From: Xenorhabdus japonica
GTDB lineage: Bacteria > Pseudomonadota > Gammaproteobacteria > Enterobacterales > Enterobacteriaceae
Length of the DNA stretch: 51,422 nucleotides
Direction of reading: 5' to 3'
Assembly (NCBI RefSeq): GCF_900115195.1
Contig: NZ_FOVO01000026.1
Location: 1 to 51,422 of the forward strand
Below are positions 36,501 through 51,148 of the stretch, one piece after another. The position numbers were made by a program, and so were the translations under genes. The notes beneath the pieces were generated by a model, which saw nothing but the letters and a program-made list of their open reading frames with translations, was not told the DNA's origin and searched no databases. Numbering within the stretch: the first letter of the stretch is position 1; each line of letters opens with the position of its first letter.

Positions 36501-38019
36501 AGGCTTCATCCTGCGCCAGGAACATTCCCTGATGGGGCAGTTGACCGCACAACGTGCCGGACGCAACACCGAATTCTTTGAAGCCTATGAAGTCGCGGAT
36601 ATTCCGCAACCGACACTGGCAGGATTGGACAGGGAATACCGTTACGACGCCGCGCTCAATCTGGTGGCAGCTAATGACGAACGGCAATGGCTGCGTTATG
36701 TGGTTAATGGCAATGGACAAGTGATCTCAGTCAGTGATGGTGAACGTTTGCGGGAGCATTATCAGTATGATGCGTCCGGTTACCCGTCCCGCCGTTTTGA
36801 TGGCCTCAATGAGATTGATGGGGAACGGCTGTACCAGAAAGGCCACCGGTTACGCCAGCTGGGTCAGCATCTGTTTGAGTATGATGATGCCGGGCGGATG
36901 ACCGCCCTGCAGCTGTGGCAGGCAGGCCACCGCCCGCAGCTGACCAGGTTCCGCTGGAACAGCCAGAACCAGCTGATTGGGGTGCAGACGCCGGGCGGCC
37001 AGCAGTGGGAGTATCGTTATGATGCCTTCGGGCGGCGCACGGAGAAAGCGTGCGAACGGGCAGGCCTGCGCACCACGTATTTGTGGGACGGGGACGTGCC
37101 GGCGGAAATCCGCGAATACCAGCACAACCGCTTGCACTGTATCCGCCACCTCGTTTTTGATGGCTGGCAGTTGCTGGCCCAGCAGGTGCAGTTCTTTAGC
37201 CTGAACCCGGAAAACCGGCATGAGCTGCTGGCCGGAGAGGTGCAGATGCAGTATGCGGTGTGCGCACCGACCGGGGAGCCGCTGGCGTTGTTTGATGCCG
37301 CGGGGCACCGGGTCTGGCGCCAGCCGCCGCAGAGCCTGTACGGGCTGCGTCTGGGGGTGTTGGGGGAAAATGCCGAGCTGAATCCGGGGCTACAATTCGC
37401 CGGGCAGTGGCTGGATGAAGAGAGCGGGTTAGTCTACAACCGGTTCCGGTATTACTCGCCAGTGGCGGGGCAGTATCTGACGCCTGATCCGATTGGGCTA
37501 ATGGGCGGTGAGAATCCCTATGCCTATGTTCATAATCCATCAACATGGGTTGATCCAATGGGACTGGCAGGATGTCCTTGGGAACAAATTGATAGGTTTA
37601 GATCTAGAACCCGATTGCCAGTTCTTGGCAACAGAGTCCCTGCTCCTAATGATGGATTACAAACTGTTGCTTTTGTTTCCATAGGAAACCGTAAATTCTT
37701 TGGTATGAATAGGCAAGCTATTCCAGGGTTGGAGTACGCAGCTAAGCGTAAAGAGTGGTTTAGAAAAATATACAAGAGTACTGGTGTAGAACCATCAACA
37801 ATTTCAAAAGCTGCCGCAGACGCTGAAGGGCTTGCATTAGTCCGAGCTTATGAACGAATAACAAAAAGTGGCGGAAAGATGCCAAAAGAAGTCACGATGT
37901 TTGTTGACCGCCCGACATGCGATTTTTGTAAGAACTATTTACCACTGCTAAGAGAATCAATGGGGATTGAGAAACTGGTTGTATATAATAAAGGCGTTTC
38001 TAATCCATTGATATTCTGA
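33592..38019 (+). CDS. rhs: PAAR-Rhs T6SS effector with deaminase-like C-terminal toxin
   Basis: A 1475-aa polymorphic toxin. A prePAAR motif (AAREGDPIQH, residues 34-43) and two hydrophobic helices (about 45-65 and 75-97) precede a PAAR spike-tip domain (about 112-190). Residues 280-1327 are the Rhs cocoon with many YD repeats, closing with the core signature D-P-I-G-L...N-P-S-T-W-V-D-P-M-G-L at about 1299-1325, where self-cleavage releases the tip. The last 148 residues are the variable toxin. They contain D-A-E (1410-1412) and T-C-x-x-C (cysteines 1443 and 1446), the zinc and catalytic motifs of the deaminase superfamily with Asp in place of the usual His, so nucleic-acid deamination is likely. 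Base composition drops sharply to A+T-rich at the tip. From 36799 onward the gene lies in the 7-kb duplicated segment. Confidence 0.93.
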   Translation: MGLSDEIVTRIARVGATHAGMKVMSPSLPRGPAAAREGDPIQHSSFLGALAGAIAGALIGAAVFAAASALVVGTGGLATAAVLALGTAGTLALGGLISDVSSAVTNMVNSFGSPDGTITSGSSNVKIEGKPAARATVDLAACSKHPPPLIAQGSESVFINDQPAARVDDKLVCGATIKGGASTVFIGSGQGTYLKIEEEFSGWQRALLIAVEFVVPPSRGLAKGIGKLLTKTGRQAVVRGALKGARKVGEVIRGKTLNCTKIAFKETKGLKRYWSSTKKFFTGDPIDVTTGALFDQRTDIELGQTVPLQFIRSWSPGQRGLLGENWTDSFSVCAIATGDRIEILTTEGASLYFALPESVDHSVNPEHPDFTLSRETQGYVLTERNNPVRKYFSLSVLTEKSEPTGALRWLLTEHRDRNGNTVHFHYNDTYKLVNVTHSDGPELVLLYREDGLLAEVRRSDNGLNEVMARYGYHTNGWLADADSLQQFHLFYDYNEQGLISRWSDGDQTAVDYRYDVQGRCTDSVGSGGFYPVKLTYESGITRSTSPQGHTTTWHYNEEQQVTQVETPCGHITRYEYDEWGNLRRQILPEGQVLTLAYLADTGLVTAFTDAAGATWKYHYDEVDQLISMTDPLGRVWWQQYDDKGNPECFIAPDGSKTTLTRNEFGLVIAAEDDEGHKRTWKYDEHQRLTQLFDEENRSLRLGYDSHDRLQRLASGGGALWLWDYDRHHRVSLSNRPNNSLESFRHDRHGNLTEWTDARGVKWHIEYGPFDLPVGRMDGEGHRWQYHYDLDSLQLLEVTNPQGESYRYTLDADGRVVTETDYAGTQWHYAYDGNGHCIEKRDALNTITRFEYDAASRMTAMHTPEGTTTYRYDILGRLLEVIAPNSTPLTFEYDDQDRIVKETQTHGDIQRDYPNSAIVESTYRPVTGQRWQVKTEANKVGELCRFSFNNEHTLTLERDEDGHEWHRQSDKGFILRQEHSLMGQLTAQRAGRNTEFFEAYEVADIPQPTLAGLDREYRYDAALNLVAANDERQWLRYVVNGNGQVISVSDGERLREHYQYDASGYPSRRFDGLNEIDGERLYQKGHRLRQLGQHLFEYDDAGRMTALQLWQAGHRPQLTRFRWNSQNQLIGVQTPGGQQWEYRYDAFGRRTEKACERAGLRTTYLWDGDVPAEIREYQHNRLHCIRHLVFDGWQLLAQQVQFFSLNPENRHELLAGEVQMQYAVCAPTGEPLALFDAAGHRVWRQPPQSLYGLRLGVLGENAELNPGLQFAGQWLDEESGLVYNRFRYYSPVAGQYLTPDPIGLMGGENPYAYVHNPSTWVDPMGLAGCPWEQIDRFRSRTRLPVLGNRVPAPNDGLQTVAFVSIGNRKFFGMNRQAIPGLEYAAKRKEWFRKIYKSTGVEPSTISKAAADAEGLALVRAYERITKSGGKMPKEVTMFVDRPTCDFCKNYLPLLRESMGIEKLVVYNKGVSNPLIF

Positions 38020-38037: not shown

Positions 38038-38511
38038 ATGTATTATTTTGAATTTAGCTATCCAGATGGAACTGTTTCTGAAAATTTTATCCTAGAAAAA
38101 TATAGAGATTTTTTTATGTCCTATTCAGAAAATAAATATATTTGGACTAAGTCTCATACAACTCTAGCCAGTCGTTATTTTTCTGAAAATAGAAAAATAA
38201 TATCTACTTTATTTTTTTCTCATCACTCTGAGCAAGGAACTTTTTCTCTACTTTATAGCCATGGTAGTTCAGGATTTTACTCTCTGGGAGATAAAGATAA
38301 AATGGATCAATTAATTGATCTGGATGGTCAGCTTGACCTTATCTTTGTCGGTGCTTGTATCCCACCGGAGAAAGCATTTTTAGCAATAGAAGACTTTGCA
38401 AAGAATCCTTTGGAACCATCGGAACGAATTGATTGGATTAATGCTAAAGATATTGACATGACAGAGAAATATAGGCTTTTGGGGTTGGATGATCTGGAGG
38501 ATTTAGATTAA
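38038..38511 (+). CDS. cognate immunity protein of the Rhs toxin (Imm1-like)
   Basis: A 157-aa acidic cytosolic protein with no signal or membrane segment, 18 bp after the rhs stop codon with AAGGAG before its ATG. Position right behind the toxin tip and matching A+T-rich composition make it the immunity protein. The C-terminal half ('LDLIFVGACIPPEKAFLAIEDFAKNPLEPSERIDWI' region: strand, I-P-P-E-K-A helix, E-R-I-D-W) resembles Imm1, a family often found with deaminase-type toxins; I hold that family name with moderate confidence only. An identical copy follows the orphan tip at 45496. Confidence 0.82.
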   Translation: MYYFEFSYPDGTVSENFILEKYRDFFMSYSENKYIWTKSHTTLASRYFSENRKIISTLFFSHHSEQGTFSLLYSHGSSGFYSLGDKDKMDQLIDLDGQLDLIFVGACIPPEKAFLAIEDFAKNPLEPSERIDWINAKDIDMTEKYRLLGLDDLEDLD

Positions 38512-38573: not shown

Positions 38574-38616
38574 TAAAAAAATGAGAGGGGAACATTTCCT
38601 CTCATTCTATTTTAAT
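38574..38616. terminator. bidirectional terminator between imm and symE-like genes
   Basis: A perfect 9-bp stem AATGAGAGG/CCTCTCATT (38580-38588 with 38598-38606) flanked by a run of As on the left and a T-rich stretch on the right. It lies between two convergent genes and can stop transcripts from both. Copy 2 has the same hairpin at 46038-46064. Confidence 0.85.
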
Positions 38617-38936
38617 TATCCCGCCTGATAATCCCCAATCAACTCCCGCATCCGCAGCTTAATCTCACTGAGCTGATCTTGCTGGCGTCGGTACTGTTGC
38701 TTGATAGTGCATGTATCATCGCTGTCAGGGATCAGCACTAAACAGCCGTTCATAATCTTGACGGTGAGTGTATCGCCAATATCAAACCCTGCTGCCTTAA
38801 GCCACTGGCCTTTCAGGTGGATCGCAGGCGGGGCACTGGCCTTGTCATTTTGCGGCACGTATCCCACCGTGTAATAACGTTCTGTTTTGGCGGCTTTATT
38901 TACCGCCCGGTTTTGCTTAGAATGCGCCTTAGCCAT
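38616..38936 (-). CDS. symE: SymE-like toxin/nucleic-acid-binding protein (AbrB fold)
   Basis: A 106-aa SymE-family protein. The core 'RYYTVGYVPQ...PAIHLKGQWLKAAGFDIGDTLTVKIMNGCLVLIPD' lines up closely with E. coli SymE (T-V-G-Y, P-A-I-x-L-K-G-Q-W-L-x-A-A-G-F, V-M-x-G-C-I-V-L). E. coli SymE is an SOS-induced toxin kept low by the antisense RNA SymR; related proteins with the AbrB-like fold are commonly encoded next to rhs genes. GGAG six bases before the ATG at 38936 favours that start over the ATG at 38948. It is convergent with the immunity gene. No LexA box or antisense RNA was identified. Confidence 0.85.
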   Translation of the reverse strand: MAKAHSKQNRAVNKAAKTERYYTVGYVPQNDKASAPPAIHLKGQWLKAAGFDIGDTLTVKIMNGCLVLIPDSDDTCTIKQQYRRQQDQLSEIKLRMRELIGDYQAG

Positions 38937-39014
38937 ATTCAACTCCATATCAGTTGGTTGTGGTGAGCAGATTGCCAGTGTTGACGCACTGACAATCTGC
39001 GATCATTTTATAAC

Positions 39015-39404
39015 TTACTCTTTCTTCTTAGCGGCCTGCCTTGCTGAATCCCAGCGCCGTGATTGATACTTGATAATCAGGCTTTCCAGTACTTCCCGCA
39101 CAATACCTTGCTCATCTTCTGGAAGCTGACTGATGGCTTCAAACTGCAATGACAGCTCACCAGTTGGCACACGTTCATGTGTATCAAATAACAAAAAATC
39201 CGTGCTGACATTCAACGATGTTGCAATCTTCTTCAATACCTCAAGGGAAGGCTGTGCCTGCCCTGTTTCGTACTTCTTCCAGCTATTAGCATGTATGCCA
39301 ATCGCATCCGCCATTGCCTGTTGGGACAGGCTGCGTTGTTTGCGTAACGCAATGAGTCTTTCAGATAAAGGCATAGGTAAACACCAGTAAATCGAATGAC
39401 TCAT
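39015..39404 (-). CDS. XRE-family transcriptional regulator
   Basis: A 129-aa protein with an N-terminal Cro/CI-type helix-turn-helix ('LSERLIALRKQRSLSQQAMADAIGIHANSWKKYETGQAQPS', residues about 13-53), then a short helical C-terminal part and a Lys-rich end (A-A-K-K-K-E). The open frame extends upstream, but the extra N-terminal residues are not protein-like; the ATG at 39404 with a GGGGG purine run ahead, or the internal ATG at 39374, are better starts. It is divergent from the primase gene across a 102-bp gap containing a 20-bp imperfect palindrome, its most likely operator. It probably represses the primase promoter, as in phage- and plasmid-like elements. Confidence 0.85.
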   Translation of the reverse strand: MSHSIYWCLPMPLSERLIALRKQRSLSQQAMADAIGIHANSWKKYETGQAQPSLEVLKKIATSLNVSTDFLLFDTHERVPTGELSLQFEAISQLPEDEQGIVREVLESLIIKYQSRRWDSARQAAKKKE

Positions 39405-39430
39405 GATTCTACCCCCAAAAAAATAACCGC

Positions 39431-39461
39431 TTGACGATGGTACATGTATATGTGCCATAAT
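39431..39461 (+). promoter_or_regulatory. primase promoter with overlapping operator palindrome
   Basis: TTGACG (39431-39436) and an extended -10 TGCCATAAT (CATAAT at 39456-39461), 19 bp apart, face the primase gene. The spacer holds the near-perfect palindrome TGGTACATGTATATGTGCCA (39438-39457). A regulator bound there would block RNA polymerase; the divergent XRE gene is the natural candidate. Copy 2 equivalent: 46889-46919. Confidence 0.55.
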
Positions 39462-39506
39462 AAAACATATAAATGGTCTTGACAAGGTTTTGAGGGAACT
39501 AAAGAT

Positions 39507-42188
39507 ATGGCTCGCATTCCCGAAGCAGAATTGCAGCACCTGAAAGCAGCAGTTCCTTTAGTGGCCGTCCTTGAGCAGCAGGGGCGGCAGGTGATTAAAC
39601 GCGGCAAAGACAGGATCGTGCTGTGCCCGTTCCATCAGGAGAAAACGCCGTCGATGGTGATCACGCCGTCGAAAAATCTCTATCACTGCTTTGGCTGCGA
39701 TGCGGGCGGATCAGTGCTGGACTGGGTGATGAAAACGGAGAATTTAAGTCTGCGCCATGCCTGTGAACGGTTGCGCGCGATGCTCGGCCGCAATCCGGCG
39801 GTCGAGCCGCTGGTTGACTCGTCGGAACTGATGAGCGATGTGGTCGGGCAACAGGCGCTGTTGTTACGGGTGACGGAGTTCTATCACCAGACCTTGCTGA
39901 ATGCGCCGGAAGCACAGGCCTATCTGATCAAGCGGCGGCTGAACCATCCTGAATTAGTGGCGCAGTTTAAGCTGGGCTTTGCCAACCGGACACTGGGGTA
40001 TCGCTTGCCCGCCCGACAACTGAAAGCCGGTGCCGAGATCCGTGCCCAGCTGCAGGCCGCCGGAGTGTTGCGTGAGAGCGGCCATGAACACTTCAGCGGC
40101 TCGCTGGTCATTCCGGTGATCGGTCTCAATGGTCAGGTGCAGGAAATGTATGGCCGCAAAATCATTGACCGCTTGCGGGCCGGGACGCCGAAGCATATTT
40201 ACCTGCCGGGGGCACACCACGGCGTCTGGAATGAAGCTGCACTGGTGGCCTCGAAAAGCCTGATCCTGTGTGAATCGCTGATCGATGCGCTGTCGTTCTG
40301 GGTCGCCGGACATCGCCATGTCACCACCGCTTATGGGGTCAATGGCGTCACGGCTGAGCACTGGCAGGCTTTTGCGCACTACGGGATTAAGCAGGTACTG
40401 ATCGCGTTCGACAATGACAGCGCCGGTAATGTGGCGGCGGTGAAACTGGCGGCCGCACTGGCCGCCAGAGGGATCACCCCGCTGCGCGTGATGTTCCCGC
40501 CGGAAATGGATGCCAACGGTTATCTGTGTCAGGTCGCCGAGCCGGAAGCCGCCTTCGGCCTGCTGCTTGACAGTGCCGTGCCGATGCAGGAGGTGGCCGA
40601 CCGCGTTGCGATTGATCCCGACCCCGCTTCTTTAGTGGCTGAACCCGCGCTCAACACCACACCGGGGGTGGTCTGTGAACCCGGTGACAATGGCGAGCTG
40701 TTGATCTCGGTCGGCACACTGCAATGGTGTCTGCGAGGCATGGGCGCAATCAAAGCCGGTGCCGCCACCATGAAACTCAATGCGCAGGTGCTGGACAGGC
40801 AAAGCGGGGTGCTGTTCGCGGATGGCGTTGATCTGAGGAGTGCCCGCAGCCGGCACAGTTATGCGAGGCAGGCGGCGACCGAGCTGGGACTGGCGGAGGG
40901 GGATATCCGGCGGGCATTGGGGCAGGTGTTGCTGGCCGTGGAGCAGTGGCAGCCGCAGGCGGCGAACCCGGCAGCGGTGCAACCTGAACTGAATGAAGCT
41001 GAACGGGAGGCAGCACTGGCCTTGCTGCAAGATCCGGCGTTGGTTGGGCGTATCACCGCTGATTTAGCCGCCTGTGGTGTGGTCGGTGAATCAACCAATC
41101 TGTTAGCGGGGTATCTGGCCGCCGTGAGCCGCAAGTTACCTAAACCCTTAGCCGTCCTGATCCAGAGCAGCAGCGCCGCAGGCAAGAGCAGTCTGATGGA
41201 TGCCGTCTTGAATCTGATCCCCGAAGAAGAACGTATCCAGTACAGCGCCATGACCGGGCAGAGTCTGTTTTACCTCGGTGAAACCAATCTCCAGCATAAA
41301 ATCCTCGCCATTGCCGAAGAAGAGGGGGTGCGACAGGCTGCGTATGCGTTGAAGCTGTTGCAAAGTGATGGCGAATTAACGATGGCGAGCACGGGCAAGG
41401 ATGAGACGACTGGCACGCTGGTCACCAAAAGCTACACGGTGAAAGGCCCGGTGATGCTGATGTTAACCACCACCGCCATTGATGTGGATGAAGAGCTGCT
41501 GAACCGCTGTCTGGTGTTGACGGTCAATGAATCCCGCGAACAAACCGAAGCGATCCATGCGTTGCAGCGCCACAAGCAAACGCTCGAAGGCTTACTGGCT
41601 GAGAATGAGCGGGACTATCTGACCGAACTGCACCAGAATGCCCAGCGGTTATTGCGTCCGCTGAATGTGGTCAATCCGTATGCCTCGCAACTGACTTTTA
41701 TGTCAGACAAAACCCGTACCCGTCGTGACCACATGAAATACCTGACCTTAATCCAGAGCATTGCCCTGTTGCACCAGTACCAGCGGGACATCAAAACCGC
41801 CGAACATCGCGGTAAGACACTGGACTATATCGAAGTCACGAAAGCCGATATCCGGCTGGCGAACCAGCTCGCCCATGAAATCCTGGGCCGGACGCTGGAC
41901 GAGATGCCGCCGCAGACCCGCAAACTGTTATTGCTGATCCAGCAGATGGCGAATGACATGGCAGCGACCGGGCAGCAGACATTACGGGAAGTTCGCTTTA
42001 CCCGGCGGGATATCCGGGCTTACACGAACTGGAGCGACAGCCAGCTTAAGCTGCATTGCCAGCGTTTAAGTGACATGGAGTATCTGCTGATCCACGGCGG
42101 CAGTCGCGGGCACCTGTTGCAATACGAACTGCTCTGGGACGGTGACGGCGACAGTGCTCACTTAAGCGGCCTGATCGTCCCCGTATGA
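39507..42188 (+). CDS. primase with CHC2 zinc finger, Toprim and P-loop ATPase domains
   Basis: An 893-aa replication protein. Residues 36-95 are a DnaG-type CHC2 zinc finger (C40, H43, C61, C64). Residues 190-345 carry the DnaG-like catalytic core and Toprim domain, with the acidic residues E256 (C-E-S-L-I-D-A-L) and D302/D304 (F-D-N-D-S-A-G). Residues 540-680 form a P-loop ATPase with Walker A S-S-S-A-A-G-K-S-S (K560) and a Walker B-like 'ILAIAEEEG' (about 599-607), followed by a helical C-terminus. It would lay RNA primers and perhaps unwind or remodel DNA. Chromosomal DnaG lacks an ATPase domain; such fusions belong to mobile elements (compare phage P4 alpha, with a different arrangement). 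It is divergent from the XRE gene, with iterons right after it and a recombinase downstream. Confidence 0.85.
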   Translation: MARIPEAELQHLKAAVPLVAVLEQQGRQVIKRGKDRIVLCPFHQEKTPSMVITPSKNLYHCFGCDAGGSVLDWVMKTENLSLRHACERLRAMLGRNPAVEPLVDSSELMSDVVGQQALLLRVTEFYHQTLLNAPEAQAYLIKRRLNHPELVAQFKLGFANRTLGYRLPARQLKAGAEIRAQLQAAGVLRESGHEHFSGSLVIPVIGLNGQVQEMYGRKIIDRLRAGTPKHIYLPGAHHGVWNEAALVASKSLILCESLIDALSFWVAGHRHVTTAYGVNGVTAEHWQAFAHYGIKQVLIAFDNDSAGNVAAVKLAAALAARGITPLRVMFPPEMDANGYLCQVAEPEAAFGLLLDSAVPMQEVADRVAIDPDPASLVAEPALNTTPGVVCEPGDNGELLISVGTLQWCLRGMGAIKAGAATMKLNAQVLDRQSGVLFADGVDLRSARSRHSYARQAATELGLAEGDIRRALGQVLLAVEQWQPQAANPAAVQPELNEAEREAALALLQDPALVGRITADLAACGVVGESTNLLAGYLAAVSRKLPKPLAVLIQSSSAAGKSSLMDAVLNLIPEEERIQYSAMTGQSLFYLGETNLQHKILAIAEEEGVRQAAYALKLLQSDGELTMASTGKDETTGTLVTKSYTVKGPVMLMLTTTAIDVDEELLNRCLVLTVNESREQTEAIHALQRHKQTLEGLLAENERDYLTELHQNAQRLLRPLNVVNPYASQLTFMSDKTRTRRDHMKYLTLIQSIALLHQYQRDIKTAEHRGKTLDYIEVTKADIRLANQLAHEILGRTLDEMPPQTRKLLLLIQQMANDMAATGQQTLREVRFTRRDIRAYTNWSDSQLKLHCQRLSDMEYLLIHGGSRGHLLQYELLWDGDGDSAHLSGLIVPV

Positions 42189-42195
42189 TTATCGC

Positions 42196-42313: not shown

Positions 42314-42412
42314 GCTAAACGAAAAATCACTGTTCCAGCAACGTAAGAAAATAAAATCACACCGTACTGCTACTGCTTCACGTTAACGCAAAAAAATACA
42401 AGGAGCTGTCTG

Positions 42413-43447
42413 ATGCCAAACACGCATGACTTCACAGTAATGACCTTACGCCAGCAACTGGATAACTGGCTGGACACGCTGACCGCACAGGGCAAAAGCC
42501 CGCAGACCCGGCTGGCCTACCGGGCCTATCTGGTGCCGTTCGTGGACTGGTGCGAACAACGGGCTGTCTGCACTGCTCCGCAGGTCTCGCTGTCGGTGCT
42601 GGAAAGCTGGCAGCGTTATCTTCGCGCTTACCGCAAGGCGGACGGGCAGCCTTACCGCAACAACGGTCAGCGTGAACGGCTCAATGCTCTGCGGTTGTGG
42701 TTCCGCGCGCTGCTGCACCGCCACCAGATTTTGTACAATCCCGCTGACCAGCTCGTGCTGCCGAAAAAAGAAAAGCGCTTGCCCGCTCAGGTGATGAATG
42801 TGGCTGAAATCGGGCAGGTGCTCGACAGTCTGGACTGCGGGACGTTGCACGGCTTTCGCAACCGGGTGATGCTGGAAGTACTCTGGAGCAGCGGCATCCG
42901 CCGGATGGAACTGGCGAATCTGCGCACGGGCGACATTGACCGCGGGCGCGGGGTGCTCTGTGTGCGTCAGGGCAAGGGGCAGAAAGACCGGGTGGTGCCC
43001 ATCGGCCGCCGGGCGCTGGACTGGCTCACCCGGTATCTGGCGCAGGTCCGCCCGCGACTGGCGGCGCACCGGGACAGTGGTTACCTGTTTATCTCCGACC
43101 GGGGACGCGGCCTGTCACGTGATTACTTAAGCCAACTGGTCGGCAAGGCTATCCGTGAACAGGCGCAGCTCGACAAACCCGGTGCCTGTCACCTGTTCCG
43201 CCATTCGATGGCGACCCAAATGCTGGACAACGGGGCCGACACCCGGCACATCCAGGCGATACTGGGGCATGAACGGCTGGAAACCACCCAAATTTATACC
43301 CGGGTGGCTATCGGGCACTTAAAGACAGTGCACCAGCAGACGCATCCGGCAGAGCAGGCAGAGTACGGGCAATCGGGGACTGACACGAAAACCCCGGATA
43401 GCAACCCGAAACCCCGGCGCACCGGACAGCCCGATAATCCCCGTTAA
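42413..43447 (+). CDS. tyrosine recombinase/integrase (XerC-like)
   Basis: A 344-aa site-specific recombinase with all catalytic residues present: R163 (S-G-I-R-R-M-E-L), K188 (Q-G-K-G-Q-K-D-R), H260-x-x-R263 (H-L-F-R-H), H286 (L-G-H-E) and nucleophile Y295 (T-Q-I-Y-T-R). The N-terminal SAM-like core-binding domain spans about 10-105. The architecture is closer to XerC/XerD and integron integrases than to lambda Int, as no N-terminal arm-binding domain is visible. Residues 305-344 are a hydrophilic Pro/Thr/Arg-rich tail not usual in Xer proteins. AAGGAG precedes the ATG. Two inverted dif-like sites lie 135-245 bp downstream and are its likely substrate, alone or with the host XerCD. Confidence 0.92.
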   Translation: MPNTHDFTVMTLRQQLDNWLDTLTAQGKSPQTRLAYRAYLVPFVDWCEQRAVCTAPQVSLSVLESWQRYLRAYRKADGQPYRNNGQRERLNALRLWFRALLHRHQILYNPADQLVLPKKEKRLPAQVMNVAEIGQVLDSLDCGTLHGFRNRVMLEVLWSSGIRRMELANLRTGDIDRGRGVLCVRQGKGQKDRVVPIGRRALDWLTRYLAQVRPRLAAHRDSGYLFISDRGRGLSRDYLSQLVGKAIREQAQLDKPGACHLFRHSMATQMLDNGADTRHIQAILGHERLETTQIYTRVAIGHLKTVHQQTHPAEQAEYGQSGTDTKTPDSNPKPRRTGQPDNPR

Positions 43448-43581
43448 GCTGGGCAGGGTTAGGTGAAGGGGCAGACCGTGGCCGGACTGCCCGTTGGCCT
43501 CAGTGCCTGCGGGGGTAAATGGGCAATGGTCGGCCTGTCCATCGGTGTCCCCAATCAGTCAGTGCAGGCCGTCCAAAGCCC

Positions 43582-43690
43582 ATTCAACATAATGTGGGGG
43601 AATTATACGCCACTCACCGGGCAGCCCCTCCGCAGCCAGTCCACGGCATCGGTGAGCGGCTCGCAGCGTATAATTAACATTATGTCTGCG
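43582..43690. other. inverted pair of dif-like sites forming one imperfect hairpin (candidate folded att site)
   Basis: Site A (43582-43613), read on the minus strand, has XerC-like arm GTGGCGTATAA (8/11 to E. coli dif), a 10-bp centre, and XerD-like arm TTATGTTGAAT (10/11). Site B (43663-43690), plus strand, has GCAGCGTATAA (8/11), a 6-bp centre TTAACA, and TTATGTCTGCG (6/11). The two are inverted with centres about 79 bp apart, and one strand can pair: ACATAATGT (43587) with 43677-43685, AATTATACGC (43601) with 43666-43675, and CTCACCG (43613) with 43650-43656. The pairing leaves a GGGGG bulge opposite one A. CTX phage attP uses the same design on single-stranded DNA. Confidence 0.6.
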
Positions 43691-43986
43691 CCCCCGCTGT
43701 TCGGCATCGCTGGGTGTGGCGCACAAGGCTGCGCCTTCTGCTGTCAGCACCGGCGCCCGTCCTCGGCAAAAATCGGTGTTCTTCTTTAGCTGCCGTGCCA
43801 TCGTCCGGCCAACAACCCTGTAGGCAGGTCGGCCTGTGGCCCCCGCTGTTTTACCTCCCCCGCTCCAACCCCGCTGCGACTTACTGCGCCCGGCTCGCAG
43901 TCACTACGCTTCTTGCCCGTTCCCGTGCTCGCCATCTCCGCCCCGTGCAGCCCCCGCAGGGGGCTTCCCTTGAATAAAGCGTCGTC

Positions 43987-44187
43987 ATGCAAAATCGTAC
44001 TCAATCAGCAACATCGGTGCGCCAGAGCGTCGCAGGGCGCCGCTGGCAGGCTCTGTGCCGCCCGCACCCGCAGAACGGCTGCCCGCCGCCCAGACAAGCT
44101 GGTCAGCGTTCAGCCGTTGCCGAAAATCCTGAAAGTGCACATTGGCGTTTTGGGTTCGCTGTGGTTAGCGGAACCGGTAAAAACTGA
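43987..44187 (+). CDS. small hypothetical ORF in the spacer
   Basis: A 66-aa basic, Gln/Arg/Pro-rich frame in the 393-bp spacer between the two repeat copies, present only once in the window. It and the G+C-rich stretch before it (43463-43980) vaguely resemble the small Ash/Icd-like frames of P4-type satellites, but I could not confirm this. No good ribosome binding site is visible. The rest of the spacer, up to the joint at 44256/44257, holds nothing I recognise. Confidence 0.3.
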   Translation: MQNRTQSATSVRQSVAGRRWQALCRPHPQNGCPPPRQAGQRSAVAENPESAHWRFGFAVVSGTGKN

Positions 44188-44355
44188 ACTTTAATAGCAT
44201 GATATTGAAAGGAAAAATCACGTAAAAAAGTATGACCGCACCCGGACTCGTCTGAGGATGGCCTCAATGAGATTGATGGGGAACGGCTGTACCAGAAAGG
44301 CCACCGGTTACGCCAGCTGGGTCAGCATCTGTTTGAGTATGATGATGCCGGGCGG

Positions 44356-45477
44356 ATGACCGCCCTGCAGCTGTGGCAGGCAGGCCACCGCCCGCAGCTG
44401 ACCAGGTTCCGCTGGAACAGCCAGAACCAGCTGATTGGGGTGCAGACGCCGGGCGGCCAGCAGTGGGAGTATCGTTATGATGCCTTCGGGCGGCGCACGG
44501 AGAAAGCGTGCGAACGGGCAGGCCTGCGCACCACGTATTTGTGGGACGGGGACGTGCCGGCGGAAATCCGCGAATACCAGCACAACCGCTTGCACTGTAT
44601 CCGCCACCTCGTTTTTGATGGCTGGCAGTTGCTGGCCCAGCAGGTGCAGTTCTTTAGCCTGAACCCGGAAAACCGGCATGAGCTGCTGGCCGGAGAGGTG
44701 CAGATGCAGTATGCGGTGTGCGCACCGACCGGGGAGCCGCTGGCGTTGTTTGATGCCGCGGGGCACCGGGTCTGGCGCCAGCCGCCGCAGAGCCTGTACG
44801 GGCTGCGTCTGGGGGTGTTGGGGGAAAATGCCGAGCTGAATCCGGGGCTACAATTCGCCGGGCAGTGGCTGGATGAAGAGAGCGGGTTAGTCTACAACCG
44901 GTTCCGGTATTACTCGCCAGTGGCGGGGCAGTATCTGACGCCTGATCCGATTGGGCTAATGGGCGGTGAGAATCCCTATGCCTATGTTCATAATCCATCA
45001 ACATGGGTTGATCCAATGGGACTGGCAGGATGTCCTTGGGAACAAATTGATAGGTTTAGATCTAGAACCCGATTGCCAGTTCTTGGCAACAGAGTCCCTG
45101 CTCCTAATGATGGATTACAAACTGTTGCTTTTGTTTCCATAGGAAACCGTAAATTCTTTGGTATGAATAGGCAAGCTATTCCAGGGTTGGAGTACGCAGC
45201 TAAGCGTAAAGAGTGGTTTAGAAAAATATACAAGAGTACTGGTGTAGAACCATCAACAATTTCAAAAGCTGCCGCAGACGCTGAAGGGCTTGCATTAGTC
45301 CGAGCTTATGAACGAATAACAAAAAGTGGCGGAAAGATGCCAAAAGAAGTCACGATGTTTGTTGACCGCCCGACATGCGATTTTTGTAAGAACTATTTAC
45401 CACTGCTAAGAGAATCAATGGGGATTGAGAAACTGGTTGTATATAATAAAGGCGTTTCTAATCCATTGATATTCTGA
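44356..45477 (+). CDS. orphan rhs-CT fragment (truncated Rhs, identical toxin tip)
   Basis: The last 373 residues of the main Rhs protein without the PAAR domain, membrane helices and most of the cocoon. The frame is open from 44236 (after a TGA at 44233-44235) and joins Rhs-homologous sequence at 44257, but the first ATG is at 44356 and has no ribosome binding site, so it is probably silent. The toxin tip keeps the D-A-E and T-C-x-x-C motifs. Orphan rhs-CT cassettes behind a full-length rhs are known as reservoirs that recombine through the shared core to change the tip; this one is odd in that its tip equals that of the main gene. It is followed by an intact immunity gene. Confidence 0.85.
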   Translation: MTALQLWQAGHRPQLTRFRWNSQNQLIGVQTPGGQQWEYRYDAFGRRTEKACERAGLRTTYLWDGDVPAEIREYQHNRLHCIRHLVFDGWQLLAQQVQFFSLNPENRHELLAGEVQMQYAVCAPTGEPLALFDAAGHRVWRQPPQSLYGLRLGVLGENAELNPGLQFAGQWLDEESGLVYNRFRYYSPVAGQYLTPDPIGLMGGENPYAYVHNPSTWVDPMGLAGCPWEQIDRFRSRTRLPVLGNRVPAPNDGLQTVAFVSIGNRKFFGMNRQAIPGLEYAAKRKEWFRKIYKSTGVEPSTISKAAADAEGLALVRAYERITKSGGKMPKEVTMFVDRPTCDFCKNYLPLLRESMGIEKLVVYNKGVSNPLIF

Positions 45478-45495
45478 TGCATAAGGAGAATTAAG

Positions 45496-45969
45496 ATGTA
45501 TTATTTTGAATTTAGCTATCCAGATGGAACTGTTTCTGAAAATTTTATCCTAGAAAAATATAGAGATTTTTTTATGTCCTATTCAGAAAATAAATATATT
45601 TGGACTAAGTCTCATACAACTCTAGCCAGTCGTTATTTTTCTGAAAATAGAAAAATAATATCTACTTTATTTTTTTCTCATCACTCTGAGCAAGGAACTT
45701 TTTCTCTACTTTATAGCCATGGTAGTTCAGGATTTTACTCTCTGGGAGATAAAGATAAAATGGATCAATTAATTGATCTGGATGGTCAGCTTGACCTTAT
45801 CTTTGTCGGTGCTTGTATCCCACCGGAGAAAGCATTTTTAGCAATAGAAGACTTTGCAAAGAATCCTTTGGAACCATCGGAACGAATTGATTGGATTAAT
45901 GCTAAAGATATTGACATGACAGAGAAATATAGGCTTTTGGGGTTGGATGATCTGGAGGATTTAGATTAA
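45496..45969 (+). CDS. immunity protein, copy 2 (Imm1-like)
   Basis: Identical in all 157 residues to the immunity protein at 38038, with the same AAGGAG site 18 bp after the orphan toxin frame. Since the orphan toxin lacks a start and delivery domains, this copy may serve as extra immunity dose. It has no obvious promoter of its own at the new location other than what the spacer 43864-44256 may provide. Confidence 0.82.
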   Translation: MYYFEFSYPDGTVSENFILEKYRDFFMSYSENKYIWTKSHTTLASRYFSENRKIISTLFFSHHSEQGTFSLLYSHGSSGFYSLGDKDKMDQLIDLDGQLDLIFVGACIPPEKAFLAIEDFAKNPLEPSERIDWINAKDIDMTEKYRLLGLDDLEDLD

Positions 45970-46031: not shown

Positions 46032-46074
46032 TAAAAAAATGAGAGGGGAACATTTCCTCTCATTCTATTTTAAT
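46032..46074. terminator. bidirectional terminator, copy 2
   Basis: Same hairpin as in copy 1 (stem 46038-46046 with 46056-46064), between the convergent immunity and symE-like genes. Confidence 0.85.
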
Positions 46075-46394
46075 TATCCCGCCTGATAATCCCCAATCAA
46101 CTCCCGCATCCGCAGCTTAATCTCACTGAGCTGATCTTGCTGGCGTCGGTACTGTTGCTTGATAGTGCATGTATCATCGCTGTCAGGGATCAGCACTAAA
46201 CAGCCGTTCATAATCTTGACGGTGAGTGTATCGCCAATATCAAACCCTGCTGCCTTAAGCCACTGGCCTTTCAGGTGGATCGCAGGCGGGGCACTGGCCT
46301 TGTCATTTTGCGGCACGTATCCCACCGTGTAATAACGTTCTGTTTTGGCGGCTTTATTTACCGCCCGGTTTTGCTTAGAATGCGCCTTAGCCAT
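46074..46394 (-). CDS. symE: SymE-like protein, copy 2
   Basis: Identical to the 106-aa SymE-family protein of copy 1, with the same GGAG-supported start at 46394. Two intact copies in the same genome mean doubled dosage of a potential toxin unless antisense or transcriptional control limits both. Confidence 0.85.
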   Translation of the reverse strand: MAKAHSKQNRAVNKAAKTERYYTVGYVPQNDKASAPPAIHLKGQWLKAAGFDIGDTLTVKIMNGCLVLIPDSDDTCTIKQQYRRQQDQLSEIKLRMRELIGDYQAG

Positions 46395-46472
46395 ATTCAA
46401 CTCCATATCAGTTGGTTGTGGTGAGCAGATTGCCAGTGTTGACGCACTGACAATCTGCGATCATTTTATAAC

Positions 46473-46862
46473 TTACTCTTTCTTCTTAGCGGCCTGCCTT
46501 GCTGAATCCCAGCGCCGTGATTGATACTTGATAATCAGGCTTTCCAGTACTTCCCGCACAATACCTTGCTCATCTTCTGGAAGCTGACTGATGGCTTCAA
46601 ACTGCAATGACAGCTCACCAGTTGGCACACGTTCATGTGTATCAAATAACAAAAAATCCGTGCTGACATTCAACGATGTTGCAATCTTCTTCAATACCTC
46701 AAGGGAAGGCTGTGCCTGCCCTGTTTCGTACTTCTTCCAGCTATTAGCATGTATGCCAATCGCATCCGCCATTGCCTGTTGGGACAGGCTGCGTTGTTTG
46801 CGTAACGCAATGAGTCTTTCAGATAAAGGCATAGGTAAACACCAGTAAATCGAATGACTCAT
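46473..46862 (-). CDS. XRE-family regulator, copy 2
   Basis: Identical to the regulator at 39015-39404, including the helix-turn-helix. Because the operator palindrome upstream of the primase is duplicated as well (46896-46915), either regulator copy should control both primase promoters. Confidence 0.85.
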   Translation of the reverse strand: MSHSIYWCLPMPLSERLIALRKQRSLSQQAMADAIGIHANSWKKYETGQAQPSLEVLKKIATSLNVSTDFLLFDTHERVPTGELSLQFEAISQLPEDEQGIVREVLESLIIKYQSRRWDSARQAAKKKE

Positions 46863-46888
46863 GATTCTACCCCCAAAAAAATAACCGC

Positions 46889-46919
46889 TTGACGATGGTA
46901 CATGTATATGTGCCATAAT
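46889..46919 (+). promoter_or_regulatory. primase promoter/operator, copy 2
   Basis: Exact copy of 39431-39461: TTGACG, the 20-bp imperfect palindrome and CATAAT. Confidence 0.55.
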
Positions 46920-46964
46920 AAAACATATAAATGGTCTTGACAAGGTTTTGAGGGAACTAAAGAT

Positions 46965-49646
46965 ATGGCTCGCATTCCCGAAGCAGAATTGCAGCACCTG
47001 AAAGCAGCAGTTCCTTTAGTGGCCGTCCTTGAGCAGCAGGGGCGGCAGGTGATTAAACGCGGCAAAGACAGGATCGTGCTGTGCCCGTTCCATCAGGAGA
47101 AAACGCCGTCGATGGTGATCACGCCGTCGAAAAATCTCTATCACTGCTTTGGCTGCGATGCGGGCGGATCAGTGCTGGACTGGGTGATGAAAACGGAGAA
47201 TTTAAGTCTGCGCCATGCCTGTGAACGGTTGCGCGCGATGCTCGGCCGCAATCCGGCGGTCGAGCCGCTGGTTGACTCGTCGGAACTGATGAGCGATGTG
47301 GTCGGGCAACAGGCGCTGTTGTTACGGGTGACGGAGTTCTATCACCAGACCTTGCTGAATGCGCCGGAAGCACAGGCCTATCTGATCAAGCGGCGGCTGA
47401 ACCATCCTGAATTAGTGGCGCAGTTTAAGCTGGGCTTTGCCAACCGGACACTGGGGTATCGCTTGCCCGCCCGACAACTGAAAGCCGGTGCCGAGATCCG
47501 TGCCCAGCTGCAGGCCGCCGGAGTGTTGCGTGAGAGCGGCCATGAACACTTCAGCGGCTCGCTGGTCATTCCGGTGATCGGTCTCAATGGTCAGGTGCAG
47601 GAAATGTATGGCCGCAAAATCATTGACCGCTTGCGGGCCGGGACGCCGAAGCATATTTACCTGCCGGGGGCACACCACGGCGTCTGGAATGAAGCTGCAC
47701 TGGTGGCCTCGAAAAGCCTGATCCTGTGTGAATCGCTGATCGATGCGCTGTCGTTCTGGGTCGCCGGACATCGCCATGTCACCACCGCTTATGGGGTCAA
47801 TGGCGTCACGGCTGAGCACTGGCAGGCTTTTGCGCACTACGGGATTAAGCAGGTACTGATCGCGTTCGACAATGACAGCGCCGGTAATGTGGCGGCGGTG
47901 AAACTGGCGGCCGCACTGGCCGCCAGAGGGATCACCCCGCTGCGCGTGATGTTCCCGCCGGAAATGGATGCCAACGGTTATCTGTGTCAGGTCGCCGAGC
48001 CGGAAGCCGCCTTCGGCCTGCTGCTTGACAGTGCCGTGCCGATGCAGGAGGTGGCCGACCGCGTTGCGATTGATCCCGACCCCGCTTCTTTAGTGGCTGA
48101 ACCCGCGCTCAACACCACACCGGGGGTGGTCTGTGAACCCGGTGACAATGGCGAGCTGTTGATCTCGGTCGGCACACTGCAATGGTGTCTGCGAGGCATG
48201 GGCGCAATCAAAGCCGGTGCCGCCACCATGAAACTCAATGCGCAGGTGCTGGACAGGCAAAGCGGGGTGCTGTTCGCGGATGGCGTTGATCTGAGGAGTG
48301 CCCGCAGCCGGCACAGTTATGCGAGGCAGGCGGCGACCGAGCTGGGACTGGCGGAGGGGGATATCCGGCGGGCATTGGGGCAGGTGTTGCTGGCCGTGGA
48401 GCAGTGGCAGCCGCAGGCGGCGAACCCGGCAGCGGTGCAACCTGAACTGAATGAAGCTGAACGGGAGGCAGCACTGGCCTTGCTGCAAGATCCGGCGTTG
48501 GTTGGGCGTATCACCGCTGATTTAGCCGCCTGTGGTGTGGTCGGTGAATCAACCAATCTGTTAGCGGGGTATCTGGCCGCCGTGAGCCGCAAGTTACCTA
48601 AACCCTTAGCCGTCCTGATCCAGAGCAGCAGCGCCGCAGGCAAGAGCAGTCTGATGGATGCCGTCTTGAATCTGATCCCCGAAGAAGAACGTATCCAGTA
48701 CAGCGCCATGACCGGGCAGAGTCTGTTTTACCTCGGTGAAACCAATCTCCAGCATAAAATCCTCGCCATTGCCGAAGAAGAGGGGGTGCGACAGGCTGCG
48801 TATGCGTTGAAGCTGTTGCAAAGTGATGGCGAATTAACGATGGCGAGCACGGGCAAGGATGAGACGACTGGCACGCTGGTCACCAAAAGCTACACGGTGA
48901 AAGGCCCGGTGATGCTGATGTTAACCACCACCGCCATTGATGTGGATGAAGAGCTGCTGAACCGCTGTCTGGTGTTGACGGTCAATGAATCCCGCGAACA
49001 AACCGAAGCGATCCATGCGTTGCAGCGCCACAAGCAAACGCTCGAAGGCTTACTGGCTGAGAATGAGCGGGACTATCTGACCGAACTGCACCAGAATGCC
49101 CAGCGGTTATTGCGTCCGCTGAATGTGGTCAATCCGTATGCCTCGCAACTGACTTTTATGTCAGACAAAACCCGTACCCGTCGTGACCACATGAAATACC
49201 TGACCTTAATCCAGAGCATTGCCCTGTTGCACCAGTACCAGCGGGACATCAAAACCGCCGAACATCGCGGTAAGACACTGGACTATATCGAAGTCACGAA
49301 AGCCGATATCCGGCTGGCGAACCAGCTCGCCCATGAAATCCTGGGCCGGACGCTGGACGAGATGCCGCCGCAGACCCGCAAACTGTTATTGCTGATCCAG
49401 CAGATGGCGAATGACATGGCAGCGACCGGGCAGCAGACATTACGGGAAGTTCGCTTTACCCGGCGGGATATCCGGGCTTACACGAACTGGAGCGACAGCC
49501 AGCTTAAGCTGCATTGCCAGCGTTTAAGTGACATGGAGTATCTGCTGATCCACGGCGGCAGTCGCGGGCACCTGTTGCAATACGAACTGCTCTGGGACGG
49601 TGACGGCGACAGTGCTCACTTAAGCGGCCTGATCGTCCCCGTATGA
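46965..49646 (+). CDS. CHC2/Toprim/P-loop primase, copy 2
   Basis: All 893 residues equal those of the protein at 39507-42188, with intact zinc-finger cysteines, Toprim acidic residues and Walker A lysine. The absence of any decay in such a long gene argues that the duplication is recent or that copies are kept identical by recombination. Confidence 0.85.
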   Translation: MARIPEAELQHLKAAVPLVAVLEQQGRQVIKRGKDRIVLCPFHQEKTPSMVITPSKNLYHCFGCDAGGSVLDWVMKTENLSLRHACERLRAMLGRNPAVEPLVDSSELMSDVVGQQALLLRVTEFYHQTLLNAPEAQAYLIKRRLNHPELVAQFKLGFANRTLGYRLPARQLKAGAEIRAQLQAAGVLRESGHEHFSGSLVIPVIGLNGQVQEMYGRKIIDRLRAGTPKHIYLPGAHHGVWNEAALVASKSLILCESLIDALSFWVAGHRHVTTAYGVNGVTAEHWQAFAHYGIKQVLIAFDNDSAGNVAAVKLAAALAARGITPLRVMFPPEMDANGYLCQVAEPEAAFGLLLDSAVPMQEVADRVAIDPDPASLVAEPALNTTPGVVCEPGDNGELLISVGTLQWCLRGMGAIKAGAATMKLNAQVLDRQSGVLFADGVDLRSARSRHSYARQAATELGLAEGDIRRALGQVLLAVEQWQPQAANPAAVQPELNEAEREAALALLQDPALVGRITADLAACGVVGESTNLLAGYLAAVSRKLPKPLAVLIQSSSAAGKSSLMDAVLNLIPEEERIQYSAMTGQSLFYLGETNLQHKILAIAEEEGVRQAAYALKLLQSDGELTMASTGKDETTGTLVTKSYTVKGPVMLMLTTTAIDVDEELLNRCLVLTVNESREQTEAIHALQRHKQTLEGLLAENERDYLTELHQNAQRLLRPLNVVNPYASQLTFMSDKTRTRRDHMKYLTLIQSIALLHQYQRDIKTAEHRGKTLDYIEVTKADIRLANQLAHEILGRTLDEMPPQTRKLLLLIQQMANDMAATGQQTLREVRFTRRDIRAYTNWSDSQLKLHCQRLSDMEYLLIHGGSRGHLLQYELLWDGDGDSAHLSGLIVPV

Positions 49647-49653
49647 TTATCGC

Positions 49654-49771
49654 AAGTCTGGGCAGCACGAACGCAAGTCTGTGCCAAGTCTGCCCCAAGT
49701 CTTGGCTAAGTCTGGGTAAGCAAAATAGCCCTAAAGCCACAGCCAGACAGGGTTAACCGCCCGCAAGTCTG
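49654..49771 (+). repeat. AAGTCTG iterons, copy 2
   Basis: Same six helically phased repeats as at 42196-42313 (at 49654, 49675, 49686, 49697, 49708 and 49765). Confidence 0.7.
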
Positions 49772-49870
49772 GCTAAACGAAAAATCACTGTTCCAGCAAC
49801 GTAAGAAAATAAAATCACACCGTACTGCTACTGCTTCACGTTAACGCAAAAAAATACAAGGAGCTGTCTG

Positions 49871-50905
49871 ATGCCAAACACGCATGACTTCACAGTAATG
49901 ACCTTACGCCAGCAACTGGATAACTGGCTGGACACGCTGACCGCACAGGGCAAAAGCCCGCAGACCCGGCTGGCCTACCGGGCCTATCTGGTGCCGTTCG
50001 TGGACTGGTGCGAACAACGGGCTGTCTGCACTGCTCCGCAGGTCTCGCTGTCGGTGCTGGAAAGCTGGCAGCGTTATCTTCGCGCTTACCGCAAGGCGGA
50101 CGGGCAGCCTTACCGCAACAACGGTCAGCGTGAACGGCTCAATGCTCTGCGGTTGTGGTTCCGCGCGCTGCTGCACCGCCACCAGATTTTGTACAATCCC
50201 GCTGACCAGCTCGTGCTGCCGAAAAAAGAAAAGCGCTTGCCCGCTCAGGTGATGAATGTGGCTGAAATCGGGCAGGTGCTCGACAGTCTGGACTGCGGGA
50301 CGTTGCACGGCTTTCGCAACCGGGTGATGCTGGAAGTACTCTGGAGCAGCGGCATCCGCCGGATGGAACTGGCGAATCTGCGCACGGGCGACATTGACCG
50401 CGGGCGCGGGGTGCTCTGTGTGCGTCAGGGCAAGGGGCAGAAAGACCGGGTGGTGCCCATCGGCCGCCGGGCGCTGGACTGGCTCACCCGGTATCTGGCG
50501 CAGGTCCGCCCGCGACTGGCGGCGCACCGGGACAGTGGTTACCTGTTTATCTCCGACCGGGGACGCGGCCTGTCACGTGATTACTTAAGCCAACTGGTCG
50601 GCAAGGCTATCCGTGAACAGGCGCAGCTCGACAAACCCGGTGCCTGTCACCTGTTCCGCCATTCGATGGCGACCCAAATGCTGGACAACGGGGCCGACAC
50701 CCGGCACATCCAGGCGATACTGGGGCATGAACGGCTGGAAACCACCCAAATTTATACCCGGGTGGCTATCGGGCACTTAAAGACAGTGCACCAGCAGACG
50801 CATCCGGCAGAGCAGGCAGAGTACGGGCAATCGGGGACTGACACGAAAACCCCGGATAGCAACCCGAAACCCCGGCGCACCGGACAGCCCGATAATCCCC
50901 GTTAA
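49871..50905 (+). CDS. tyrosine recombinase, copy 2
   Basis: Identical to the 344-aa recombinase at 42413-43447, catalytic R-K-HxxR-H-Y complete. With both copies and both att-like hairpins intact and in direct orientation, recombination between them could release a 7458-bp circle. Confidence 0.92.
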   Translation: MPNTHDFTVMTLRQQLDNWLDTLTAQGKSPQTRLAYRAYLVPFVDWCEQRAVCTAPQVSLSVLESWQRYLRAYRKADGQPYRNNGQRERLNALRLWFRALLHRHQILYNPADQLVLPKKEKRLPAQVMNVAEIGQVLDSLDCGTLHGFRNRVMLEVLWSSGIRRMELANLRTGDIDRGRGVLCVRQGKGQKDRVVPIGRRALDWLTRYLAQVRPRLAAHRDSGYLFISDRGRGLSRDYLSQLVGKAIREQAQLDKPGACHLFRHSMATQMLDNGADTRHIQAILGHERLETTQIYTRVAIGHLKTVHQQTHPAEQAEYGQSGTDTKTPDSNPKPRRTGQPDNPR

Positions 50906-51039: not shown

Positions 51040-51148
51040 ATTCAACATAATGTGGGGGAATTATACGCCACTCACCGGGCAGCCCCTCCGCAGCCAGTCC
51101 ACGGCATCGGTGAGCGGCTCGCAGCGTATAATTAACATTATGTCTGCG
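51040..51148. other. inverted dif-like pair/hairpin, copy 2
   Basis: Exact copy of 43582-43690: site A at 51040-51071 and site B at 51121-51148. About 170 bp further right the repeat is interrupted. Confidence 0.6.

Follow-up and report, generated by a model that had tools for sequence, protein, structure and literature searches.

Two inverted dif-like sites as a putative attachment site

The contig NZ_FOVO01000026.1 of Xenorhabdus japonica (assembly GCF_900115195.1), 51,422 nucleotides long and analysed as a whole, is referred to here as the window; the genome to which it belongs measures 3.56 Mb. Downstream of a gene for a XerC-like tyrosine recombinase, the window carries two inverted sites whose arms resemble those of dif, the chromosomal site of XerC and XerD. 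These paired sites are probably the attachment site of a small mobile unit that bears an Rhs toxin tip, an immunity gene and a recombinase of its own, and that would exchange a folded strand mostly at the first of the two sites. Sequence comparison supports this reading through a conserved fold, change points that lie mostly at site 1, gain and loss of unit-sized segments, and different toxin tips beside near-identical units. An earlier note on this DNA had read the pair as part of an element that integrates a folded single strand, the primase completing the second strand. What stands of that reading is that the pair behaves like the attachment site of an element encoding both a tyrosine recombinase and a primase; a single-stranded or cruciform substrate, the element's own enzyme as catalyst and a primase that replicates a circle or makes the second strand are what we infer beyond it. 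The two sites and the structure that they can form are as follows.

43582..43613, minus strand: site 1 (attP1-like), with XerD-like arm, 10-nt centre containing GGGGG, and XerC-like arm
43663..43690, plus strand: site 2 (attP2-like), with XerC-like arm, 6-nt centre and XerD-like arm; pairs with site 1
43587..43685, no strand assigned: hairpin with two arm helices, a G5 bulge at 43596-43600 and a possible spacer stem 43613-43619/43650-43656, from the trimmed DNA fold and covariation
51040..51148, no strand assigned: second copy of the site 1/site 2 hairpin, 100% identical to the first, in the tandem copy

Read in the minus orientation (43582-43613), site 1 consists of GTGGCGTATAA, TTCCCCCACA and TTATGTTGAAT, and site 2 in the plus orientation (43663-43690) consists of GCAGCGTATAA, TTAACA and TTATGTCTGCG, with 81 bp between the starts of the two sites. 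Complementarity is perfect between 43587-43595 and 43677-43685 and between 43601-43610 and 43666-43675, so that GGGGG (43596-43600) is bulged out. The XerD-like arm of site 1 agrees at 10 of 11 positions with E. coli dif. The letters thus bear out what the earlier note had claimed of this region, namely two inverted sites with XerC- and XerD-like arms at 43582..43690, a XerD arm matching dif at 10/11, and arms that pair to leave a five-G bulge.

Resemblance to dif was rejected as evidence by itself. Site 1 has the highest dif-like score in the window (18/22, with 14 for site 2), but the generic scan is not significant, as 221 sites score 14/22 or better, where 40 shuffles of the window give 200 on average, and some inverted dif-like pair was present in each of these shuffles. 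Because the dif-likeness of a single sequence is close to what chance yields in both sites and pairs, it is the comparison among related loci that decides.

Conservation of the pair among related loci

The 80 loci with a related recombinase that were fetched, the best 80 of 498, come from Xenorhabdus, Photorhabdus, Pectobacterium, Brenneria, Serratia, Citrobacter, Porticoccus and others, and 73 of them have at least 350 nt of sequence downstream of the gene. The recombinase was the starting point of this search, and its presence in loci outside the window genome is no evidence. An inverted pair lies downstream of the XerC-like gene in 65 of the 73 loci, compared with 0/3650 controls shuffled in two-base blocks and 0/77 in-gene controls. 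A looser search of the eight loci without a pair recovered a hairpin in L111 and in L158, the latter a betaproteobacterial metagenome-assembled genome, and still found none in L146, L147, L157 and L162-L164. The hairpin of L158 (at about 3050-3180) follows a like plan with other arm letters (ACATAACCG/CGGTTATGT, TTCTGC/GCAGAA) and keeps the pairing. Another, earlier set comprised 33 copies of the recombinase, 21 of them with the pair; among those without it are copies that are incomplete and the relatives L068-L071 from plasmids.

The XerD-like arm of site 1 is near-constant across the loci. The spacer, as defined by the search pattern, is 21-26 or 53-54 nt long in 62 of the 65 paired loci and 14 nt in L144 and 87 nt in L160 and L161, which gives two main hairpin classes: a long one (spacer 53-54 nt, with the centre of site 1 mostly enlarged by G) and a short one (21-26 nt). 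Judged by this comparison, the paired sites are real and conserved.

Folding and covariation of the hairpin

Folds of the hairpin trimmed at its natural ends were adopted after those of a 121-nt context had proved equivocal. The minimum-energy DNA fold of the trimmed hairpin contains exactly the proposed arms and bulge, at -19.3 and -20.9 kcal/mol for the two strands, and the outer helix is part of the minimum-energy structure on both strands in all 29 distinct short and all 37 distinct long hairpins folded in this way. RNAalifold, unaided, returns nearly the same structure.

Covariation in the long class was assessed on 25 of 30 rows (set A6), leaving out L057, which had wrong strand coordinates, and also L049, L055, L073 and L128, whose rows were correct. 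In these sequences 96.9% of the cells are paired, compared with 92.1% after shuffling (0/500 shuffles as high) and 21-46% in slid controls, and changes on both sides occur at 7 pairs. The short class was represented by the 10 gap-free rows of 28 (set A7); here 99.0% of the cells are paired, again with 0/500 shuffles as high and with slid controls at 15-54%, and both-side changes occur at 2 pairs, a number reached by 355 of the 500 shuffles. Since matching changes in the arms could stem from one enzyme that binds both sites, the spacer, which lies outside the dif-like arms, is the better test. A scripted parse of all 29 distinct short hairpins found a spacer stem of 4-6 bp in 28, nearly always around a TGAAC-like loop; the exception is L071, whose site is elsewhere in that locus. 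Four distinct 5-bp stems occur (GGGCC/GGCCC, GCCGC/GCGGC, GTTGC/GCAAC and GATGC/GCATC), with up to four pair types at a position, and base-shuffled spacers gave a 5-bp stem in 816 of 29000 cases. The centres of site 1 and site 2 are unequal in length and unpaired. The pattern of paired changes indicates that the hairpin is under selection.

Break points in natural recombinants

One recombinant is seen in a pair of E. coli loci, R12 and SCU-111, which have both flanks in common at the same locus and contain one unit and two units, respectively. R12 is identical to unit 1 of SCU-111 over 14053-15322 and to unit 2 over 15258-15811 (554 nt); beyond 15811 scattered differences from unit 2 appear, at an offset of 6812-6809. 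The difference between the two strains amounts to one unit of 6,812 bp. As the two ranges of identity overlap by 65 bp, the crossover lies within 65 bp that hold site 1 (15277-15300) but not site 2, which starts at 15357. E. coli A36 combines the tail of R12 with a third recombinase variant: its left part is 70% identical to R12 and 91% to SCU-111 unit 2, and the last left difference from R12 is at -20. In E. coli 200164 the recombinase is 99.0% identical to that of R12 and is joined to another tail (94.6%), with the change between -286 and +46.

Photorhabdus thracensis has four type A and three type B copies of the recombinase, each type 100% identical within itself over 800 nt, and these are combined with tails as A+t3 (L116), B+t3 (L126), A+t2 (L118, L119) and B+t2 (L125, 98.2%). 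L117 and L118 are identical over the left 800 nt and differ from +15, and L116 and L126 are identical over the right 600 nt and differ up to -26. Between Xenorhabdus budapestensis and X. anantnagensis (L087/L095) the left side is 99% and the right side 66% identical, with the first difference at +22. Taken together, the changes seen in these three genera are consistent with a single stretch of about 40 bp made up of the XerD-like arm and centre of site 1.

The earlier note had held that related elements with boundaries elsewhere would speak against it, an outcome that for the most part was not seen. Among the 3003 pairs that can be formed from 78 hairpins, which are not independent of one another, 11 show one sharp change: nine at site 1, one at site 2 and one, between the two copies of the window itself, further right. 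In the comparison that gave the Photorhabdus and Xenorhabdus bounds above, reverse-strand readings of the same hairpins and the window pair were set aside, and in that of the E. coli tails L082 (whose left flank is missing at the record end) and L083. Of the 3003 pairs, 15 more are alike inside the hairpin but different in both flanks, and nothing follows from them about the break point. Natural recombinants appear, on these alignments, to break mostly in site 1.

Genes of the unit

By its gene content the unit consists of an Rhs toxin-tip fragment, an immunity gene, SymE, an RstR-like repressor, a primase and a recombinase, and it often stands in tandem. Its size is about 6.5-10 kb in the arrays measured. 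The features of the window that make up its two copies, including the Rhs gene of the type VI secretion system (T6SS) that adjoins them, are listed below.

33592..38019, plus strand: full T6SS-type Rhs gene with PAAR, RHS repeats and a weak deaminase-like tip match; the 3' part from 36799 lies within the repeat
38038..38511, plus strand: putative immunity gene after the Rhs tip, named by position, with no family match
38616..38948, minus strand: SymE-like gene (Pfam PF08845, 78.8 bits)
39015..39539, minus strand: RstR-family repressor, divergent from the primase (NCBIfam NF041951, 138 bits, cut-off 80)
39507..42188, plus strand: DnaG-type primase of 893 aa with Zn-ribbon, TOPRIM and a long C-terminal part (Pfam PF01807, PF13155)
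42413..43447, plus strand: XerC-like tyrosine recombinase of 344 aa (NCBIfam NF002331/PRK01287, 506.7 bits, cut-off 371)
43691..44256, plus strand: tail before the Rhs core fragment, ending AAAAGTATGACCGCACCCGGACTCGTC.., recognised by homology to the second array of the genome and by its end motif
44257..45969, plus strand: displaced Rhs core fragment with toxin tip and immunity gene, the cargo of the second unit, from comparison of the tandem copies
46074..50905, no strand assigned: second SymE, RstR-like, primase and recombinase gene set, a 99.97% tandem copy at offset 7458

The family profile of the recombinase matches the XerD chain 1a0p with E 2e-58 over XerD positions 6-298, and matches the IntI4 chain in two separate stretches. 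The recombinase does not reach the cut-off of the integron-integrase model TIGR02249 (117.9 bits against 265). Residues R163, K188, H260, R263, H286 and Y295, which we presume to be the positions of the catalytic residues of tyrosine recombinases, are invariant in 15 aligned recombinases. Among the best 80 of 498 matches, the closest named relative is from Xenorhabdus kozodoii (89% identical). Of 246 genomes of the family, 25 hold relatives of the primase, in several cases in tandem. The score of the repressor, above a curated cut-off, places it in the RstR family; its listed start overlaps that of the primase and is perhaps too far upstream. The six main reading frames of the unit gave no match to phage structural or HUH replication families.

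Arrays, cargo and distribution

In the window, 36799-43870 is repeated as 44257-51328 at 99.97% identity and an offset of 7,458 bp. The contig ends 94 bp past the point where the tail of the second copy diverges, and further copies may be collapsed or missing in the assembly. Another contig of the same genome carries a second array, in which the recombinase is 69% and the site region 84% identical to those of the window; the recombinase gene precedes all four site copies in this genome. The two units of the second array are 99.9% identical and stand beside different tips, as expected if units move and tips are exchanged.

Where enough sequence was at hand (52 loci), 45 loci show a motif marking the end of the Rhs core at a distance of 300-3000 nt past the recombinase, and the opposite strand gave none; a stricter motif was found anywhere in the locus in 39 of 80. 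The conserved end of the tail (AAAAGTRTGACC..CACCGGA..) joins the Rhs core, at DPIGL codons in six of the seven tail ends found by motif. These ends lie at 44226-44256 in the window, at 10373 and 17111 in L005, and at 12793 (L054), 952 (L055), 15908 (L056) and 4095 (L067). The joint between tail and Rhs core forms a second precise boundary, which in the window lies further upstream in the core. We rejected the junction at the DPIGL codons as the recombination site, because R12/SCU-111 and most mosaics change at site 1. After the last toxin/immunity pair, a SymE gene or remnant without the rest of a unit is seen in L005 (17859-18107), L072 (31076-31318) and L076 (17716-17958), as if it were the scar of an older unit.

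A search of E. coli with the window DNA gave no match, and the circular record of Shigella flexneri replaced it as the query. At least 80% of this query is present in 54 of 5,426 complete E. coli genomes; all 309 matched places are chromosomal, and the copies in E. coli are found next to Rhs genes, on the upstream side of yddH/nhoA. Full units bear their own recombinase, and decayed units without one also occur. On plasmids the same gene set is also found after CdiA-type genes: in L069 and L070, from plasmids of Enterobacter and Pseudomonas, a helix-turn-helix gene, a primase, a XerC-like gene and a toxin-antitoxin pair stand in tandem after CdiA/TpsA genes. The attachment hairpin was sought in these CdiA-linked plasmid relatives, also by the looser search, and was not found. 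Relatives of the recombinase and primase are carried by Leptospira plasmids as well (records NZ_CP092659 and NZ_CP091955). Two small circular records labelled as plasmids, from S. flexneri (8758 bp) and Lonsdalea, are made of such units.

Proposed mechanism

Pairing of site 1 with site 2, in single-stranded DNA or in an extruded cruciform, would give one dif-like duplex with an unpaired centre, to which the recombinase could bind. The enzyme would then exchange a strand, mostly at site 1, with the attachment site of another unit, and so add a unit to, or remove one from, the tandem array that adjoins the rhs gene. In most exchanges the XerC-like arm of site 1 would stay with site 2, so the hairpin would remain complementary. 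One homologous crossover between the Rhs-core fragment of the cargo and the intact rhs gene could next attach the new tip and leave the old one downstream, as Jackson et al. (2009) proposed with hypothetical circles (PMC2935791). The primase and repressor suggest controlled replication of a circle. A unit may also enter an rhs locus that is free of units.

Several observations weigh against this reading. In the break-point comparison the change between L118 and L125 of P. thracensis falls at site 2, from +51 to +65, so site 1 is not the sole break point, and we dropped a reading in which exchange takes place at site 1 only. L117 and L125 have the hairpin in common and neither flank. (The hairpins of L117, L118 and L125 lie at 6575, 6575 and 6218; exchange at both arms or in two steps is possible.) The window's own two copies are alike for about 180 bp past the hairpin, and their duplication is therefore by itself no pointer to site 1. 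In distant relatives of like gene order, namely the plasmids L068-L070 with CdiA-type genes and L162-L164, the hairpin was sought and not found. The minimum-energy DNA fold of the 121-nt context is not the full hairpin on either the top strand (z -1.45) or the bottom strand (z -2.65), and this context folds only mildly better than shuffles, an equivocal result. The check by folding both strands that the earlier note proposed thus yields the proposed arms and bulge for the trimmed hairpin, but not for the longer context, where the full hairpin is not the minimum-energy structure. The near-equal folding energy of the two strands gives no choice of strand. The S. flexneri circle lacks about 80 bp of a full array period, and its ends join within the primase gene; it may thus be an assembly product, and we downgraded it as proof of excision. 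The Lonsdalea circle comprises one full and one truncated gene set.

Alternative explanations

Conventional recombination on duplex DNA, with site 1 as the core site and site 2 together with the hairpin serving as a second core site or an accessory one, as a signal in cruciform form or as a hairpin in RNA, for example a terminator, would also give change points mostly at site 1 with one at site 2, and one enzyme binding both sites would also produce matching changes in the dif-like arms. Such an enzyme would not account for the compensatory changes in the spacer stem, outside those arms, and the spacer length classes of the 62 loci and the unequal, unpaired centres, as in integron attC sites and CTX attP, likewise speak against it; we regard the duplex explanation as rather unlikely. 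The exchange may instead be the work of host XerC and XerD, as in CTX phage, the XerC-like protein of the element helping or doing another job. Both arms are dif-like, the XerD-like arm of site 1 is near-constant and matches dif at 10/11, and the XerC-like arm of the E. coli elements (AGTGCGCATAA) likewise matches E. coli dif at 10/11. The XerC-like arms of the window (GTGGCGTATAA and GCAGCGTATAA) nevertheless differ from that of the host's likely dif (AGTTCGCACAA), and the element's recombinase gene, with its presumed catalytic residues invariant, precedes every site copy in the window genome. Exchange by the host enzymes seems to us unlikely. The two may also act as a mixed pair, host XerD on its own arm and the element's recombinase on the XerC-like one.

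The mosaics could also have been made by RecA-dependent homologous recombination in a conserved stretch, the element not moving by this site at all. Site 1 does lie within one of the longer blocks of parental identity (65 bp in E. coli, 40 bp in P. thracensis), and changes also occur at site 2 and past the hairpin. The block containing site 1, however, offers 1.7-2.4% of the opportunity for homologous recombination in E. coli and 2.5-3.3% in P. thracensis, only about 2-3%, because much longer identical blocks lie elsewhere in the same units (376, 228 and 158 bp; 189 and 179 bp); junctions from three genera nonetheless fall in it. This makes RecA a very improbable source of the mosaics. That the hairpin is a chance inverted repeat, or the relic of a CTX-like filamentous prophage, has on its side that generic dif-like pairs are common by chance and that an RstR-family gene adjoins the primase. 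The pair is conserved in 65 of 73 loci, its arms and spacer covary and no phage structural family was found in the six main reading frames of the unit, all of which make this explanation scarcely credible.

Significance

The way in which tips of Rhs and other effectors are exchanged is still debated. The loci compared here, some of them from E. coli, display the recombinase, its likely attachment site, a crossover placed to within tens of bases and the unit moved, which opens the matter to direct tests. The units may explain how bacteria swap contact-killing toxins.

Comparison with known systems

A literature search found no description of this element; most subscription papers lay outside the search, and its absence in print is uncertain. 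Jackson et al. (2009) proposed hypothetical circular intermediates for the orphan tips of Rhs loci and knew of no integron-type integrase with Rhs (PMC2935791). As in the arrays that they describe, core fragments of variable length and their tips are displaced downstream of an intact rhs gene (PMC2935791), and the window has the defining layout of an orphan-tip array, a full rhs gene followed downstream by a displaced core fragment with its tip and immunity gene; unlike those arrays, the unit includes a recombinase, an attachment site and a primase. Elsewhere, loci for contact-dependent growth inhibition carry orphan toxin/immunity arrays with intervening integrase genes (PMC4927057), xerC/D genes lie near polyimmunity loci (PMC3482391), and integrase-like genes near Rhs in bee gut bacteria were left without an assigned role (PMC5727410); for Vibrio, one paper reports no evidence of an integrase aiding the insertion of effector-immunity modules (PMC5361080). 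The Vibrio elements SE-6283 and SE-6945 (7.1 kb) are recombinase-bearing integrative elements with circularization biased to a single strand (PMC9345347). The unit resembles them, by description, in bearing a recombinase; a word search of the paper for 'hairpin' and 'rhs' gave no match (PMC9345347).

The attachment site of CTX phage consists of attP1 and attP2, which are inverted, have centres of 12 and 7 nt and lie about 90 bp apart (PMC3089051). As in the unit, the two dif-like sites pair on one strand and combine a long with a short centre (12/7 against 10/6); the sites are 81 bp apart here, and the XerD-like arm starts TTATGTTGA in both (PMC3089051). The CTX attP-like layout that the earlier note had proposed is therefore supported, with inverted sites and centres of 10 and 6 nt in place of 12 and 7. 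Unlike CTX-type integrative mobile elements exploiting Xer (IMEX), the unit encodes its own recombinase and primase, stands in tandem arrays beside rhs with toxin-tip cassettes, and commonly has a short loop (21-26 nt); unlike the filamentous genome of CTX, it showed no phage structural family among its main reading frames. Integration at host dif was not seen, as a different contig carries what is likely the dif of the window host, and the dif sequence is absent from 12 of 12 E. coli loci checked. With its own recombinase, a location away from dif and no phage structural family, the element is by definition not a CTX-type IMEX.

Integron attC sites are folded, with an unpaired central spacer, a variable terminal structure and a crossover on one arm, and when the other strand is used the crossover point moves to the other arm (PMC2727003). 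Exchange at site 2 would suit a folded site in the same way, by analogy only. The unit shares with attC an attachment site predicted to fold, with complementary arms, an unpaired centre, a variable terminal stem and a crossover mostly on one arm, and it shares the formation of arrays (PMC2727003). It departs from integrons in having a XerC-like enzyme rather than IntI, dif-like arms, units that carry their own recombinase and primase, and no attI platform that we could see; with a recombinase below the integron-integrase cut-off and borne by full units, the element is not an integron. By analogy, it would work like both CTX attP and integrons. We suggest tentatively, the chances being close to even, that it represents a third and independent form of tyrosine recombination on folded DNA, in which a XerC-like enzyme, a hairpin attachment site of its own and a primase make toxin-tip cassettes self-contained and replicating. 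If so, such cassettes would be the circular vehicle once postulated for the displacement of Rhs tips, and attachment sites of folded DNA would extend beyond integrons and CTX-like phages.
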